From positions 1,178,001-1,242,000 of the forward strand of contig NZ_CP040709.1 of the NCBI RefSeq assembly GCF_005952805.1: DNA of 64,000 nt. The letters are read 5' to 3'. Shown piece by piece: positions 56,950 to 60,679 of this stretch. The stretch is from Inhella inkyongensis (GTDB taxonomy: Bacteria; Pseudomonadota; Gammaproteobacteria; Burkholderiales; Burkholderiaceae_C). The position numbers were made by a program, and so were the translations under genes. The notes beneath the pieces were generated by a model. The model saw only the letters and a program-made list of their open reading frames with translations. It was not told the origin of the DNA and ran no database searches. Numbering within the stretch: the first letter of the stretch is position 1; each line of letters starts with the position of its first letter.

Positions 56950-57066
56950 AGCAGGTGGCCGAAGCCAGCCCGCAGGGTAACAGAGGGCCCGGCTTGTTCG
57001 CCTTGTAGGGCACCGATGAAATCGGCCATCAGGCGGCGCGTAAGAGCGCCAGTGAGGACTGACACG

Positions 57067-57285
57067 ATGAAGCACCACATCCGCCCAAGGCTGAAGCGCA
57101 TGGCGCTCAAGGCCAGCCAGGCGCTCACCGCACTGGCTGGCGCGGCCCTGCTGGTGCCGGCCTTGGAGGGTCAGCGTGAGGCCCTGGCTTGGCTCATCGT
57201 CGGCCTCGGCCTGCTTCAGGCCGCCTGCGGTGACAGCGAAGCACAGCCAGCGAGCGACCCCACCCTGCCGGCCCTACGCGAATGA
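57067..57285 (+). CDS. Small phage membrane protein, unknown
   Basis: 72 residues from the ATG at 57067 (an ATG at 57016 is in frame). A basic N-terminus (RPRLKRMALKAS) and two closely spaced hydrophobic helices (ALTALAGAALLVPAL, LAWLIVGLGLLQAACG) suggest a hairpin membrane protein, holin-like in shape. No family recognised. Plus-strand, facing the minus-strand repressor operon. Confidence 0.5.
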   Translation: MKHHIRPRLKRMALKASQALTALAGAALLVPALEGQREALAWLIVGLGLLQAACGDSEAQPASDPTLPALRE

Positions 57286-57330
57286 CACCTGCGCTGATCC
57301 CCGGCGGGCTGCTTGCGGCCAGCGCCCACA

Positions 57331-57636
57331 TCAGTCTTCGCCGCCAGGGCGAAGCGGGCCCGGCGCAGGCCCTTCAACTCGCTGCCGGTCTGTTAGCGCG
57401 GCTGCAAAGCCCTGCCACAGCTGCGGCATCTGCAAGCGGGGCGGCAACTGCGTGGCCAGGCGGTCCAGCGCCTGCTCGTACTCCTCCAACACCCCCGCCA
57501 CCGCCGCAGGCTCCAGACGCAGAACCAAGCTGTGCAATAGCGCCTCGCAAGCCAGCAGGCGGTTCAGGATCTGCGTCTGTGAGTGCCCCAGTTCCCTGAT
57601 CGCGCGGTGCGTTGGGTCTTCGGGTTGATCGCTCAT
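57331..57636 (-). CDS. Small helical phage protein in the repressor operon
   Basis: 101 residues from the ATG at 57636 with GGAAAG upstream. MSDQPEDPTHRAIRELGHSQ, ILNRLLACEALLHSLVLRLE and EEYEQALDRLATQLPPRL are amphipathic helices; the protein looks like a small helical bundle. A plus-strand ORF over the same bases is Pro/Ala-biased and less protein-like. Fourth and last gene of the repressor operon. Confidence 0.6.
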   Translation of the reverse strand: MSDQPEDPTHRAIRELGHSQTQILNRLLACEALLHSLVLRLEPAAVAGVLEEYEQALDRLATQLPPRLQMPQLWQGFAAALTDRQRVEGPAPGPLRPGGED

Positions 57637-57686
57637 GCGTGGGCTTTCCAAGGCTCAGGGGTTCACGGTGAGCACAGCGTTGCCGA

Positions 57687-58172
57687 TCACGCTATGGGTC
57701 TCTGCCGAAGCGCCTGCAGGCGCTGTGAGCTCGCCGCTGCGGCTAGCGGTTCGATCTGGTTCACGATGCGGCGGTATTGATCTGCACGCGCCTGGTAGGC
57801 AGCCTGTTCGGCGCTGCGCTTGGCGCGCTTGCAGATCAGCACGCCGGCCTCCAGCACCCGGCTGACAAAGCCCGCACGCTGGCGCTGCCGCACGGTAGCG
57901 GGCTGGTGCCCGAACATCCCTTGCGCCCAGGCATGGCTGTTGGCCACCAGCCATTCAATCTCCTGCAGGGCCTCCTCGAATTGGCCCGCCTGCTGCAGAT
58001 ACTTGGCCAGCTTGTCGTCGGCCCAGCCCTCGCCCAGCAGCGCCTTGCGCCGCCGCAGCGCTGCAATGGCCCCGGCCCAGTCGCCCGCGCGTTTCAGCGC
58101 CGTGGCTTGGCGGTCGAGCTGGTACTCCTCGGCGTCCATCACGGCCGCCAGCGCTTCGCTGCGCGTAATCAC
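57687..58172 (-). CDS. TPR-like helical protein in the repressor operon
   Basis: 161 residues from a GTG at 58172 overlapping the upstream TGA (GTGA); an ATG at 58139 is possible. LKRAGDWAGAIAALRRRKALL and LAKYLQQAGQFEEALQEIEWLV look like two TPR/helical hairpins, followed by a long basic helix region. No catalytic motif. Tight coupling to the motif-bearing membrane protein suggests a partner or adaptor role. Confidence 0.65.
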   Translation of the reverse strand: MITRSEALAAVMDAEEYQLDRQATALKRAGDWAGAIAALRRRKALLGEGWADDKLAKYLQQAGQFEEALQEIEWLVANSHAWAQGMFGHQPATVRQRQRAGFVSRVLEAGVLICKRAKRSAEQAAYQARADQYRRIVNQIEPLAAAASSQRLQALRQRPIA

Positions 58173-58627
58173 CACCGCCCCGCGCGGGAAAGGGCCACGG
58201 CGCGCTCCAGGTACTGAACCTCCGCCTCCCAATCTGCGATCACGTGGCGCATGCGCCGGCGCACCAGATCCAGCCAAGTGGCCGACCCCAACACGCCAAG
58301 GGCCCAGACCGCCAAGGCCGGCACCGGCATGGGCAAAGCCTCACCTGAGAACAACGGTCGGCGAGTCAGGCCCAGGACGAAGAGCCCGGCACCCAGAGTC
58401 GTCCATCCCAGCAGCAGCAAACAGGGCGCATTCACATAGAAGCCCAGCCGAGCACGCCAGCTCTCAGCTTGCGCCTGGCGCAGTTGGGCTTCCAGCTCAC
58501 ACAGGGACGGGCGCTCGGGCTCTGCCAGCGGCTCCGCACAGTTGACATCACGCCCGGCCACGTGACCAAACACCGGCGCATGGATATTGATCGTGGTGTG
58601 GTGCGGCCCTTCTTCTGAATCGCTCAC
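58169..58627 (-). CDS. Two-helix membrane protein with an N-terminal motif shared with the repressor
   Basis: 152 residues from a GTG at 58627 overlapping the repressor TGA (GTGA). Residues 11-29 read TTINIHAPVFGHVAGRDVN, nearly the same as the repressor C-terminus. A coiled-coil stretch (about 36-60) leads to membrane helices at about 66-87 and 101-118, then a charged helical tail (120-146). Topology predicts both ends in the cytoplasm, where the motif could meet the repressor. The arrangement recalls amyloid-signalling effectors in which an N-terminal or C-terminal motif nucleates on a partner; its activity is unknown. Confidence 0.72.
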   Translation of the reverse strand: MSDSEEGPHHTTINIHAPVFGHVAGRDVNCAEPLAEPERPSLCELEAQLRQAQAESWRARLGFYVNAPCLLLLGWTTLGAGLFVLGLTRRPLFSGEALPMPVPALAVWALGVLGSATWLDLVRRRMRHVIADWEAEVQYLERAVALSRAGRW

Positions 58628-59121
58628 TTCTTTCTTCCCCCTGGGGTCTCGCCCCTGTTGTTGATATTTCGCCCGGCCACGCCGCCGTAGACCGGGGCGT
58701 TCACATTGACATTGGCGCCGCCGCCCACTTGCACGGTGTGCGCGCCGCTGTTACTCATGCCGCCTGCACCGGCAGGGCTACCGGCCCCTAAGCCTGCAGC
58801 GAACAACGCCGCCGTCTGGATGAGGTTCTGCCGGGCCTGCGCGTTGCAGCGGCGATAGCTGTCGAGCAGCACCTGCTCGGCAGCGTCGAGCTTGGCGCCG
58901 GCAGGGTCGCGCGATCCGGTCAGCAGGTAGTTCACATCTGCGCCGAACTCTGTCACGAGTTTCAACAGCGACGAGCCATCTGGCAGGCGCTTGTCCGCCT
59001 CCCAACCAGCTACCGATTTGCGATCAACCCCAAGCCGCTCGGCGAACTCCGTCTGGGGCATGTCGCCCCTCAAGTCACGGATCCGCATCCCTGCCGAAAA
59101 CAAACTCTCGTTAGGGTTCAT
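58624..59121 (-). CDS. XRE-family prophage repressor with a C-terminal beta/amyloid-like motif
   Basis: 165 residues from the ATG at 59121 with AAGGGA upstream. The HTH_XRE domain (about 11-66) includes MPQTEFAERLGVDRKSVAGWE and VNYLLTGS. A helical segment (78-112) may dimerise. A Gly/Ala linker leads to HTVQVGGG and NVNVNAPVYGGVAGRNINN (137-155). VQVG matches the core tetrad of RHIM-type amyloid motifs. There is no LexA/S24 peptidase domain, so RecA-stimulated self-cleavage is not available. It heads a four-gene minus operon and diverges from the transposition genes, the position of the Mu c repressor. Confidence 0.85.
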   Translation of the reverse strand: MNPNESLFSAGMRIRDLRGDMPQTEFAERLGVDRKSVAGWEADKRLPDGSSLLKLVTEFGADVNYLLTGSRDPAGAKLDAAEQVLLDSYRRCNAQARQNLIQTAALFAAGLGAGSPAGAGGMSNSGAHTVQVGGGANVNVNAPVYGGVAGRNINNRGETPGGRKK

Positions 59122-59123
59122 AA

Positions 59124-59153
59124 ATTCCCTTGCAAGTGGGAAATGAATTCCCC
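59124..59153. promoter_or_regulatory. Candidate repressor operator (ATTCCC half-sites)
   Basis: ATTCCC (59124-59129), GGGAA (59138-59142) and ATTCCCC (59147-59153) form an imperfect dyad plus a third half-site, three bases upstream of the repressor ATG. The first half-site contains the repressor's own ribosome binding site (AAGGGA on the minus strand), so binding would autoregulate. A weak minus promoter TTGGTT (59181-59176), 16 bp spacer, GATTAT (59159-59154) sits just beyond. Confidence 0.45.
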
Positions 59154-59236
59154 ATAATCACACCCAAGCCAGCCAAACCAAACCTAACCGCACCGCCCAG
59201 GCCAAAAAATGAACCGACTGTTTGCCCTCAGAAACC

Positions 59237-59473
59237 TCATTGCGTGGGCCCTGCTTCGGACCTTGTTTCCGCGAGCGCTCGCCCGAGCAGAAGGTGCAGC
59301 TGTGCTGCTGATTCGGGCGTCAGCTCCCACGTCACCGGCACCAGCTTTGGCCCCACCGGCCCCGCTTGAGCTCGCACTACTAGACCTTCACCCAGCAAGG
59401 TCCACGCCACGCCGTCAATCTGTTTCAGACAGCCTAGGGACGCGAGTAGTCCAAGTTCGCCAATCGCCTGCAT
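59237..59473 (-). CDS. Small phage protein in the control region
   Basis: 78 residues. DGVAWTLLGEGLVVRAQ, KLVPVTWELTPESAAQL and LHLLLGRALAETRSEA look protein-like, with beta strands then a helix. The ribosome binding site is poor. An overlapping plus ORF (59209-59493) is Pro/Ala-biased and less convincing. If real, it would be an extra minus-strand gene ahead of the repressor. Confidence 0.42.
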   Translation of the reverse strand: MQAIGELGLLASLGCLKQIDGVAWTLLGEGLVVRAQAGPVGPKLVPVTWELTPESAAQLHLLLGRALAETRSEAGPTQ

Positions 59474-59521
59474 CGACCCCCCCGGTTCGTTGAGTGTTCT
59501 TACACCTATTCACACCATTCT

Positions 59522-59785
59522 ATGAAGCAGCTTCGCACCCCGGCCCAAGCCCGCGCCTGGCTGGACTTTCAGGGCATCTCCATCGCCCAGTGGGCGCGTG
59601 AACACCAGGTGCATCACAGCCTGGTGCGCGAGATCCTGGCCGGCCGCAAGAAGTGCCTGCGCGGCATGAGCCACAACATCGCCGTGCTGCTGGGCATGAA
59701 GGCCGGCGTCATCACCACGCGGCCGGGCCGGGTGCGGCCGGCAGGCGCGCCGGGCGAAGCCGCTCAGCAAGGGGTCGCCGCATGA
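59522..59785 (+). CDS. Ner-like phage DNA-binding protein
   Basis: 87 residues from the ATG at 59522: MKQLRTPAQARAWLDFQGIS, IAQWAREHQVHHSLVREILAGRKK and CLRGMSHNIAVLLGMKAG. This is the helix-turn-helix type found as the first early gene of Mu-like phages, where Ner limits early and repressor transcription. An Arg/Pro/Ala-rich tail follows. GTGTTCTTACAC (59494-59505), an interrupted dyad, lies upstream. Confidence 0.8.
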   Translation: MKQLRTPAQARAWLDFQGISIAQWAREHQVHHSLVREILAGRKKCLRGMSHNIAVLLGMKAGVITTRPGRVRPAGAPGEAAQQGVAA

Positions 59786-59803
59786 AGCCGCCGATCCCCA
59801 CCG

Positions 59804-60082
59804 TCATTCCACTGGACCAATTCGACCCAGCTTGGCCCGCAACACCGATTCTTGGTGGCTCGTACGCAAGGCATCCAGCGCCTGCGCCAGCTCGTGCAGC
59901 GTGTTGCGAGCGGTGCGCAGACTGCCCGCATCGGCCTGCGGCGGCACCGACTCCCGCCACCGCCGCGTCAGCGTGAGGCCGTCCATGTCTGTCTCGCACT
60001 CCACCGCCCAGGCCAGGGTCAGCACGGCGCGGGCCAGGCCCTCTATGCGGCCGGCCAGTTCATCGAAGTCAGTTGCGTCCAT
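59804..60082 (-). CDS. Small helical phage protein on the opposite strand of the early region
   Basis: 92 residues from the ATG at 60082 with an excellent AGGGAGG eight bases upstream. DATDFDELAGRIEGLARAV, LTRRWRESVPPQADAGSLR and RNTLHELAQALDALRTSHQE are amphipathic helices. It fills a gap between two plus-strand genes, so minus transcription here would oppose early mRNA. Function unknown. Confidence 0.6.
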   Translation of the reverse strand: MDATDFDELAGRIEGLARAVLTLAWAVECETDMDGLTLTRRWRESVPPQADAGSLRTARNTLHELAQALDALRTSHQESVLRAKLGRIGPVE

Positions 60083-60205
60083 GGACAGCGCCTCCCTGTG
60101 TCGTTATTCGGAGCCTGCAATGTGCCACCCCGTTGGCGCTTGGACGCCTGGCACGGGCGGCCTTTGTTTGGATGCTGAGTGCAAGCACCTCGGAGGGCTC
60201 TTCCA

Positions 60206-60679
60206 ATGAGCGGACGCGCTTGGAAAACCTACCAACCCAGCACCCTGCGCGACGCGCTGCAGGCCTGCAAGGACTACGCGCTGCAAAAGCACCGCCTGAG
60301 CGTCGAGCGCCTTGCCGAGCGCATGGGGCTGGAGGACCACTGGGCCCTCTACAAGTGGATCGCCAACGGCCGCATGCCGCTGGTGAATGTGCCGGCCTAC
60401 GAGCACGCCTGCGGCTGCAACTTTGTCACCCGCTGGCTGGCCGCCACCAGCGGCAAGCTGCTGGTGGACATGCCCAAGGGCCTGGCGCCCCAGCCGGGCG
60501 ACCTGGTGGCGCTGAACACCAGCTGCGCCCAGGCGCTGCAACTGCTCACCGAGTTCTACGCCGCCAACGGCCAGGCCGACGCGGCCCCGGCCCTGGAGGC
60601 CCTGCGCACCCACCTGGAACAGGTGGCCTTTCACCACCGCAACGTGGCCGCCTACCGCGCGCCCGAACTGGAGTTCTGA
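60206..60679 (+). CDS. Phage early regulatory-type protein
   Basis: 157 residues from the ATG at 60206. YQPSTLRDALQACKDYALQK, LSVERLAERMGLEDHWALYKW and AYEHACGCNFVTRWLAATSG form an HTH-like N-domain followed by a helical C-domain (ALQLLTEFYAANGQ, EQVAFHHRNVAAY). It resembles a family of BcepMu-type early proteins with presumed DNA-binding function. TGATG overlap with the next gene. Confidence 0.72.
   Translation: MSGRAWKTYQPSTLRDALQACKDYALQKHRLSVERLAERMGLEDHWALYKWIANGRMPLVNVPAYEHACGCNFVTRWLAATSGKLLVDMPKGLAPQPGDLVALNTSCAQALQLLTEFYAANGQADAAPALEALRTHLEQVAFHHRNVAAYRAPELEF

Follow-up and report, generated by a model that had tools for sequence, protein, structure and literature searches.

Why does a prophage repressor carry, near its C-terminus, a stretch that recurs near the beginning of the membrane protein encoded by the next gene? 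The locus that raises this question lies on the minus strand of a 64,000-nucleotide stretch of Inhella inkyongensis DNA, referred to here as the window. Its repressor, an XRE-type protein of 165 residues (58624..59121) with matches to HTH_3 and to PHROG transcriptional regulators, has a DNA-binding helix-turn-helix at residues 14-66 (58924..59082; Pfam HTH_3, E 2.2e-8), is 50% identical over residues 9-103 to the repressors of B3-related Pseudomonas phages, and gives no Pfam peptidase match that would indicate an S24/LexA-type autocleavage domain. Its stop codon overlaps the GTG start of the next gene in the sequence GTGA (58624..58627), and this second gene (58169..58627) encodes a membrane protein of 152 residues, the partner, which bears the motif in its N-terminus and has aligned relatives in locus L090 and in phages B3 (ORF20) and Ps59 (Ps59_18). 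The overlap joining these two minus-strand genes and the two membrane helices behind the partner motif had both been described in an earlier, sequence-only reading of the locus, and both hold up: the helices are predicted by hydropathy at residues 69-87 (58367..58423) and 104-122 (58262..58318), within helices 42-88 and 102-148 of an AlphaFold2 model in which the partner forms a long hairpin of helices and its N-terminus is disordered (pLDDT <50 at residues 6-27). A GGGGGA about 9 nt upstream of the partner start could be its ribosome site.

The shared stretch is VNVNAPVYGGVAGRNIN in the repressor tail (residues 138-154; 58660..58710) and INIHAPVFGHVAGRDVN in the partner (residues 13-29; 58541..58591), with 10 of 17 positions identical in a gapless alignment. 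The sequence-only reading was right about this likeness and wrong about its register, its alignment of residues 137-155 with 11-29 being off by one and leaving 2 identities in 19 positions; it also had the repressor end with the motif, which is in fact followed by 10 further residues (RGETPGGRKK). The VQVGGG that it placed upstream of the motif is found at residues 130-135. VQVG itself (residues 130-133; 58723..58734) stands in the same column as the (I/V)Q(I/V/M)G core of aligned related tails, here called QIG, and with the APVYGGVAGRN motif following it the window tail looks like one to which a second motif was added. The motif regions are disordered in the AlphaFold2 models.

The surroundings are those of a B3-like immunity region (repressor, then a two-helix membrane gene, with divergent HTH early genes), as judged by order, annotation and the repressor/partner alignments. 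On the repressor's other flank lie an HTH protein like PHROG 925, a CII-like activator, a regulator like PHROG 1368 and a PHROG 1748 protein, and these flanking genes resemble the early region of B3 and Ps59, which are transposable phages, a resemblance of order and annotation rather than of gene-by-gene alignment. A third gene (57687..58187; start ambiguous) overlaps the partner and is possibly in the same operon; it is weakly TPR-like, with Pfam TPR matches only at E of at least 0.1, and matches PHROG 38637, of unknown function, at E 8.6e-10. There is also a likeness between its start and the partner's end (score 47, p 0.001 in shuffles). No RNA element reached gathering score in 57000-60500. 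A 42.6-kb IMG/VR contig carries the same repressor/partner pair at 99-100% identity, and the genome of the window encodes, around 780 kb, a related repressor with a helical-looking tail (L122). No family claims the window partner above threshold in Pfam, PHROG, PADLOC or NCBIfam; a marginal Pfam 8xMP match (E 0.033, under the cut-off) was given no weight, and nothing significant was found for its model among BFVD folds (best E 0.11).

Matched pairing of repressor and partner is not peculiar to the window. Among 20 fetched phage loci with related repressors, there are seven in which the tail motif finds its match at the beginning of the gene that follows: B3, Ps59, the P2-like Burkholderia phages KS5, Carl1 and AP3, the Mu-like KS10, and the P2-like 520873 of E. 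coli, in whose record an interruption breaks the partner frame, although intact copies exist. Komp_PAO1_1 has the tail, the matching gene being absent, and 12 of the 20 have, as judged by reading, neither tail nor partner; the repressor of the Acidovorax phage Acica is long and differently built. Tail and partner are thus often missing from relatives, and the module is not needed for lysogeny. B3 repeats the window layout with its own matched motif (VTGDGNRTAGRDF / VTGSNNIVAGRDF) and a partner with two transmembrane segments, Ps59 likewise joins such a repressor to a two-helix partner through its own matched motif, and L090 has the same layout down to the 4-nt gene overlap, with an ATG start. 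The E. coli locus, counted as repressor plus partner start, occurs in 510 of 5,426 complete genomes; among the matches listed, NCBI names its partner a membrane protein in 10 of 40, and mostly a hypothetical protein otherwise. With this locus so widespread in E. coli, and B3 being a laboratory phage, the pairing is open to direct experiment.

Bacterial genomes extend this picture. A profile of whole repressors (A3), nine of whose 12 rows have tails, finds matches in 55 of 349 host-family genomes; loci were read with about 1.5 kb per side, repressors being located with an HTH-only model. From these came 64 distinct testable repressor-like frames, a set that leaves out repressor hits without a downstream candidate, tails of <20 residues and repeats of one tail. 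Eleven, the window included, give shuffle p<=0.001 against their best candidate for the next gene, and the value that follows is 0.023; because A3 was built mostly from tailed repressors, this proportion may overstate the frequency of tails. L088 is a twelfth match once the search is not limited to 70 residues (score 64, against 45 for the best of 50 shuffled tails), and its partner (L088:2157-2399; start ambiguous, later than the automatic call) comprises 80 residues that include a zinc ribbon besides the motif and end in a tryptophan-rich stretch. For the Gly-rich tails of L086, L094 and L104 no match was found within the locus. L094 is one of four repressor matches with the same score in genome G181, perhaps four prophage copies, and the only one of the four places that was read. 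A class-wide search found such repressors in 31 of 279 genomes and led to 28 new loci that were read, 8 further places having no locus; these yielded one further pair, L160 (AAGRD type, p 0.004), and one unmatched tail, L163. Two peptide patterns representing four QIG-type partners, run against 84,980 genomes, gave 30 candidate stretches and seven confirmed loci, all in named Burkholderiales or in an unplaced proteobacterial bin; three of the seven repeat earlier pairs, and L153, L154 (p 0.002), L156 (p <0.002) and L158 (p 0.008) are new.

The sequence-only reading had staked its proposal on the motif recurring in homologous repressor/partner pairs, and altogether 24 pairs were found in which a motif in the repressor C-terminus matches the N-terminus of the next protein. 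Its picture of a repressor followed by a two-helix membrane protein is too narrow: that layout recurs in B3, Ps59 and L090, but with the window these make up only four of the 24 partners, and the others carry other domains. KS5, Carl1, AP3 and E. coli partners have a helical domain and one transmembrane segment; those of KS10 and L160 are helical by reading, with no transmembrane segment; L088 has the zinc ribbon; and the remaining 13 (L084, L085, L095, L097, L100, L103, L112, L113, L121, L153, L154, L156 and L158) form the QIG class, of which the L113 partner is a short version. The two-helix class is rare in the genomes searched. A direct phage search with the window partner gave one weak match (E 0.7), and IMG/VR the same phage; 399 family genomes gave 12 marginal matches besides the window (E 0.001-0.009), judged to be chance; profile A1 found the window only in 369 genomes of the class; and profile A4, run on 299 genomes, had no match beyond the window and G235, the genome that contains L090.

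Sorted by eye, the motifs fall into an AGRD type (window, L090, B3, Ps59, E. coli and L160), a QIG type (13 pairs) and a GQVxGD type (KS5, Carl1, AP3 and L088), KS10 having a type of its own. Tails of the QIG class mostly contain the (I/V)Q(I/V/M)G core, and most of its pairs have xIQIG-type cores on both sides. In a matrix of 23 pairs, which omits L155, L157 and L159 (repeats of L103, L085 and L095), the interrupted 520873 partner and L088, tails score a mean of 49.6 with their own partners against 28.5 with others, and none of 100,000 random pairings reaches the own-pair sum. Co-variation between partners, on which the earlier proposal also depended, is therefore found, and it extends within motif classes: no permutation in 100,000 does as well within the QIG class (13 pairs) and 262 in 100,000 do within the AGRD class (6 pairs), although the permutations take no account of shared ancestry and four pairs of partners are >60% identical. 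Common descent by itself, however, gives a repressor tail no likeness to the N-terminus of another protein. In 12 of 23 rows and 18 of 23 columns the highest score belongs to the own pair; AP3 is weakest, its own score of 34 ranking sixth of 18, and the L112 score takes in a stretch upstream of the motif. Departures from the core appear on both sides of a pair, with VNIG/VNIG in L121 (Q to N), IHIG/VHMG in L156 (Q to H) and TQLG/TQVG in L112 (T before Q). The partners of L090, L160 and L023 have a second Gly-rich stretch (e.g. SIHIGAIHGGQNVIGHTGDIYL) after the matched motif.

Tails and partners also appear to move as units. L153 (L153:1860-2492) has a QIG tail and partner behind an apparent other HTH that gives no match to the HTH model, and it reads as a swap of the DNA-binding domain with the partner kept. 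The middle helix of the window repressor (AAEQVLLDSYRRC.AQARQ.LIQTAAL.AAGL) recurs in L085, where tail and partner class are different. The repressor/partner motif system is real, recurrent, co-varying and modular.

Could a likeness of this kind arise without selection on the proteins? The tails are rich in G, N, Q and S, and Gly-rich, low-complexity ends might resemble each other by chance; we find this barely credible, given that composition-keeping shuffles rarely reach the observed scores (for the window pair the BLOSUM62 local score is 64, whereas 5,000 shuffles of both proteins gave no more than 51), that cross pairs of similar composition score lower, and that adjacent genes in general rarely match. 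As background, 976 adjacent ORF pairs were scored that excluded the surveyed repressors, with shuffling applied only to those scoring >=36, and 10 are at p<=0.001; six of these are repressor/partner pairs themselves, leaving four, and in one of the four it is the end of the window partner that matches the third gene. A degenerate DNA pattern representing the motif occurs in the window only in the repressor tail and the partner N-terminus, with 0 expected from 100 shuffles. The likeness could instead lie in the DNA, as a recent duplication of coding sequence or as a translated element such as an operator or recombination site. That 36 of 51 nucleotides agree in the window, with the same codon at 6 of 10 identical residues, speaks for such an origin, as does a same-codon rate slightly above usage expectation across 18 pairs (87 of 189 identical residues, with 72 expected). 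Codons nevertheless differ at more than half of the identical residues, and those shared number only 2/9 in KS10, 2/9 in AP3 and 3/11 in L100, so that we hold a DNA origin to be very improbable. With codon agreement only slightly above expectation, the likeness is not a fresh DNA repeat, and the codons indicate that it is held by protein-level selection or old conversion, not by fresh duplication.

What the partners are is best answered class by class. Transmembrane segments, predicted by hydropathy alone, occur in 8 of 23 partners, and 10 others have an N-terminal helical moment >=0.46, six of these ten beating shuffles at p<0.05; a strong amphipathic N-terminus is found in 10 of the 13 QIG-class partners, and neither feature in five of the 23 (L084, L112, L113, KS10 and L160). 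The L090 partner matches PHROG 17537, of unknown function. Residues 35-166 of the E. coli partner match Flk (NCBIfam PRK10715) at 58.3 bits and E 7.8e-16, against a curated cut-off of 353 bits, and the same protein gives weak antirepressor PHROG matches (E 0.004 and 0.024). A profile of the KS5/E. coli class matches an AntA antirepressor outside its AntA domain (probability 87.9), in a region that Pfam places weakly in ORF6C; the KS5 and AP3 partners give weak Pfam ORF6C matches of their own (0.046 and 0.089), and the window partner has no Pfam match to that region. QIG-type partners show no clear match to the KS5/E. coli class (probability 18.6) or to the AntA protein; since the two cannot be joined into one family, we do not claim a single common partner domain. 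PHROG 5825 had one match in 274 genomes, an AntA antirepressor, and among 14 control genomes a match in E. coli. PHROG 17822, whose first third matches the repressors and whose middle matches the KS10 partner (E 0.0036), may be a natural fusion. The L097 partner model found nothing significant among PDB folds (best E 1.3), the C-terminal domain of lambda Red-beta being among the weak three-helix matches.

Membership of a known defence family was considered and rejected, with no PADLOC match among the scanned partners and HTH-type matches only for the repressor. In an E. coli P2-like prophage the partner (L041:2920-3570) is a relative of Flk. Six other loci (L110, L122, L130, L147, L148 and L164) have helical-tail repressors followed by a 4-nt-overlapping gene with one or two predicted membrane helices and no matching motif, and three more (L123, L137 and L150) have the 4-nt overlap with no predicted transmembrane segment; a membrane partner next to the repressor may be a wider theme.

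We propose that the two window genes are the immunity module of a B3-like transposable prophage, in which the repressor would bind its membrane partner through matched beta-type motifs and capture would tune immunity, an account for which we see about as much reason to accept as to doubt. Matching motifs in neighbouring genes that change together point to direct pairing of repressor and partner, and the membrane segments of many partners point to capture of the repressor at the membrane. In the available part of PMC9936078, the lysogen transcript of Fc02, a B3 relative, covers the repressor and the next gene, so that partners are probably made in the lysogen; the Fc02 repressor matches that of the window over residues 11-103. 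The N-terminal HTH of the repressor would bind operators, while its flexible C-terminal tail carries the short, Gly-rich, putatively beta-type motif; the translationally coupled next gene would supply a membrane protein with a copy of the motif in its presumed cytoplasmic N-terminus. If the two copies bind by like-to-like beta stacking, some of the repressor would be tethered to the inner membrane or tied up with the partner in mixed assemblies, and capture would set the amount of free repressor. Changes at the membrane, such as infection, stress or partner turnover, might then release or capture repressor and shift the balance of lysogeny without RecA cleavage. The same pairing would serve in other phages with different partners, among them a class that is like antirepressors and Flk. 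Counting against this account are the disorder predicted for the motif regions, the tails for which no matching gene was found, the relatives that do without the module, and the five partners with neither a predicted transmembrane segment nor a strong amphipathic N-terminus.

Two other readings accept the motif and dispute what it does. It might serve self-assembly only, the repressor oligomerising on DNA and the partner in the membrane with no mutual binding; like motifs may self-assemble, and a repressor that lacks an S24 domain and ends in a short tail is consistent with this. Such an arrangement leaves unexplained why tail and partner change jointly within pairs while motifs differ between them, and why L085 and the window differ in both at once, and we think it unlikely. 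We hold a similarly low opinion of the reading in which the partner is an exclusion or abortive-infection effector, by a Rex-like logic, that the repressor silences or triggers through the motif and that acts on superinfecting phages rather than on the repressor. A two-helix membrane protein would suit that role, other repressor-adjacent genes of B3-like phages have exclusion activity according to the part of PMC9936078 available, and the accessible text of PMC7889193 describes pairs of bacterial amyloid signalling (BASS) proteins as thought to end in a membrane-acting effector. No scanned partner matched PADLOC, however, no lysis or pore feature was recognised, and the likeness of one partner class to antirepressors suggests a modulator of the repressor rather than a killing protein.

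Temperate phages of several kinds might run a prion- or RHIM-like switch in which the repressor is the receptor-like part, captured or released through homotypic cross-beta assembly with a dedicated, membrane-linked partner; immunity would then be set by nucleated assembly and switchable without RecA, and a motif type proper to each phage would prevent cross-talk between co-resident prophages. We offer this tentatively, as a reading clearly more likely to fail than to hold, and amyloid assembly in particular is borrowed by analogy from the RHIM-like core (PMC7885112) and the BASS layout (PMC7889193), both sources being available in part. The recurrence, in several kinds of phage, of matched pairs with differing motifs does suggest that these repressors may be retained or regulated by binding to a partner of their own, in many cases at the membrane. 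Were this borne out, a new way to set prophage immunity would be at work in some phage repressors that lack an SOS-cleavable domain, each paired through its motif with a dedicated protein that in many cases sits at the membrane; several repressor-adjacent phage proteins now annotated only as hypothetical or membrane proteins would acquire a role; and, as far as is known and a literature search shows, this would be the first known place where RHIM/BASS-like pairing acts on a transcription factor.

No description of a phage repressor with such a motif was found in print among titles and the beginnings of abstracts, and the main text of PMC12261475, in the portion available, has 0 occurrences of phage, repressor, helix-turn-helix or HTH. 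Repressors of the LexA/CI type carry an S24 autocleavage domain, for which the window repressor has no Pfam match. Lambda cI-rexA-rexB is likewise a repressor operon that includes a membrane protein, expressed in the lysogen; we know of no motif common to CI and RexB. Flk (RflH), a regulator of enterobacterial flagellar secretion, ends in a membrane helix, as does the E. coli partner that is akin to it, but the latter is phage-borne and has an N-terminus matched to its repressor. Among AntA/ORF6C antirepressors, an AntA-type protein has a helical region in common with the KS5/E. coli class of partners, a likeness that the window partner does not have; no scanned partner matches the AntA domain, and partner genes adjoin the repressor gene and copy its motif.

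The closest comparison is with BASS and RHIM proteins. The RHIM core is G-(I,V)-Q-(I,V)-G in the accessible part of PMC7885112; the (I/V)Q(I/V/M)G core of the QIG class is close to this and to the fungal PP and BASS3 motifs, but usually has no G directly before it, whereas the window pair is matched through APVxGxVAGRxxN and has VQVG only in the repressor. BASS systems, as far as PMC7889193 could be consulted, comprise adjacent or overlapping genes whose products have one matching short motif, drawn from many motif families, with a membrane-linked partner. Pfam matches of the window repressor are of HTH type only, with no NLR-type receptor (NB-ARC/NACHT) among them, and Pfam, PADLOC and NCBIfam show no BELL, CHAT or TIR domain in the scanned partners, although these libraries may lack a BELL model. 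The analogy with BASS and RHIM proposed in the sequence-only reading therefore stands for the RHIM-like core seen in most of the QIG class (13 pairs) and for the BASS-like layout, and is not supported for membership of the BASS families, with no NLR, CHAT or TIR found and with opposite polarity, the motif here being C-terminal in the first protein and N-terminal in the second. Neighbouring or overlapping genes with one common short motif are found in both, and the layout thus resembles BASS/RHIM pairs without the NLR that defines BASS: where BASS NLR/BELL pairs have an NLR as sensor, a phage repressor appears to stand in its place.
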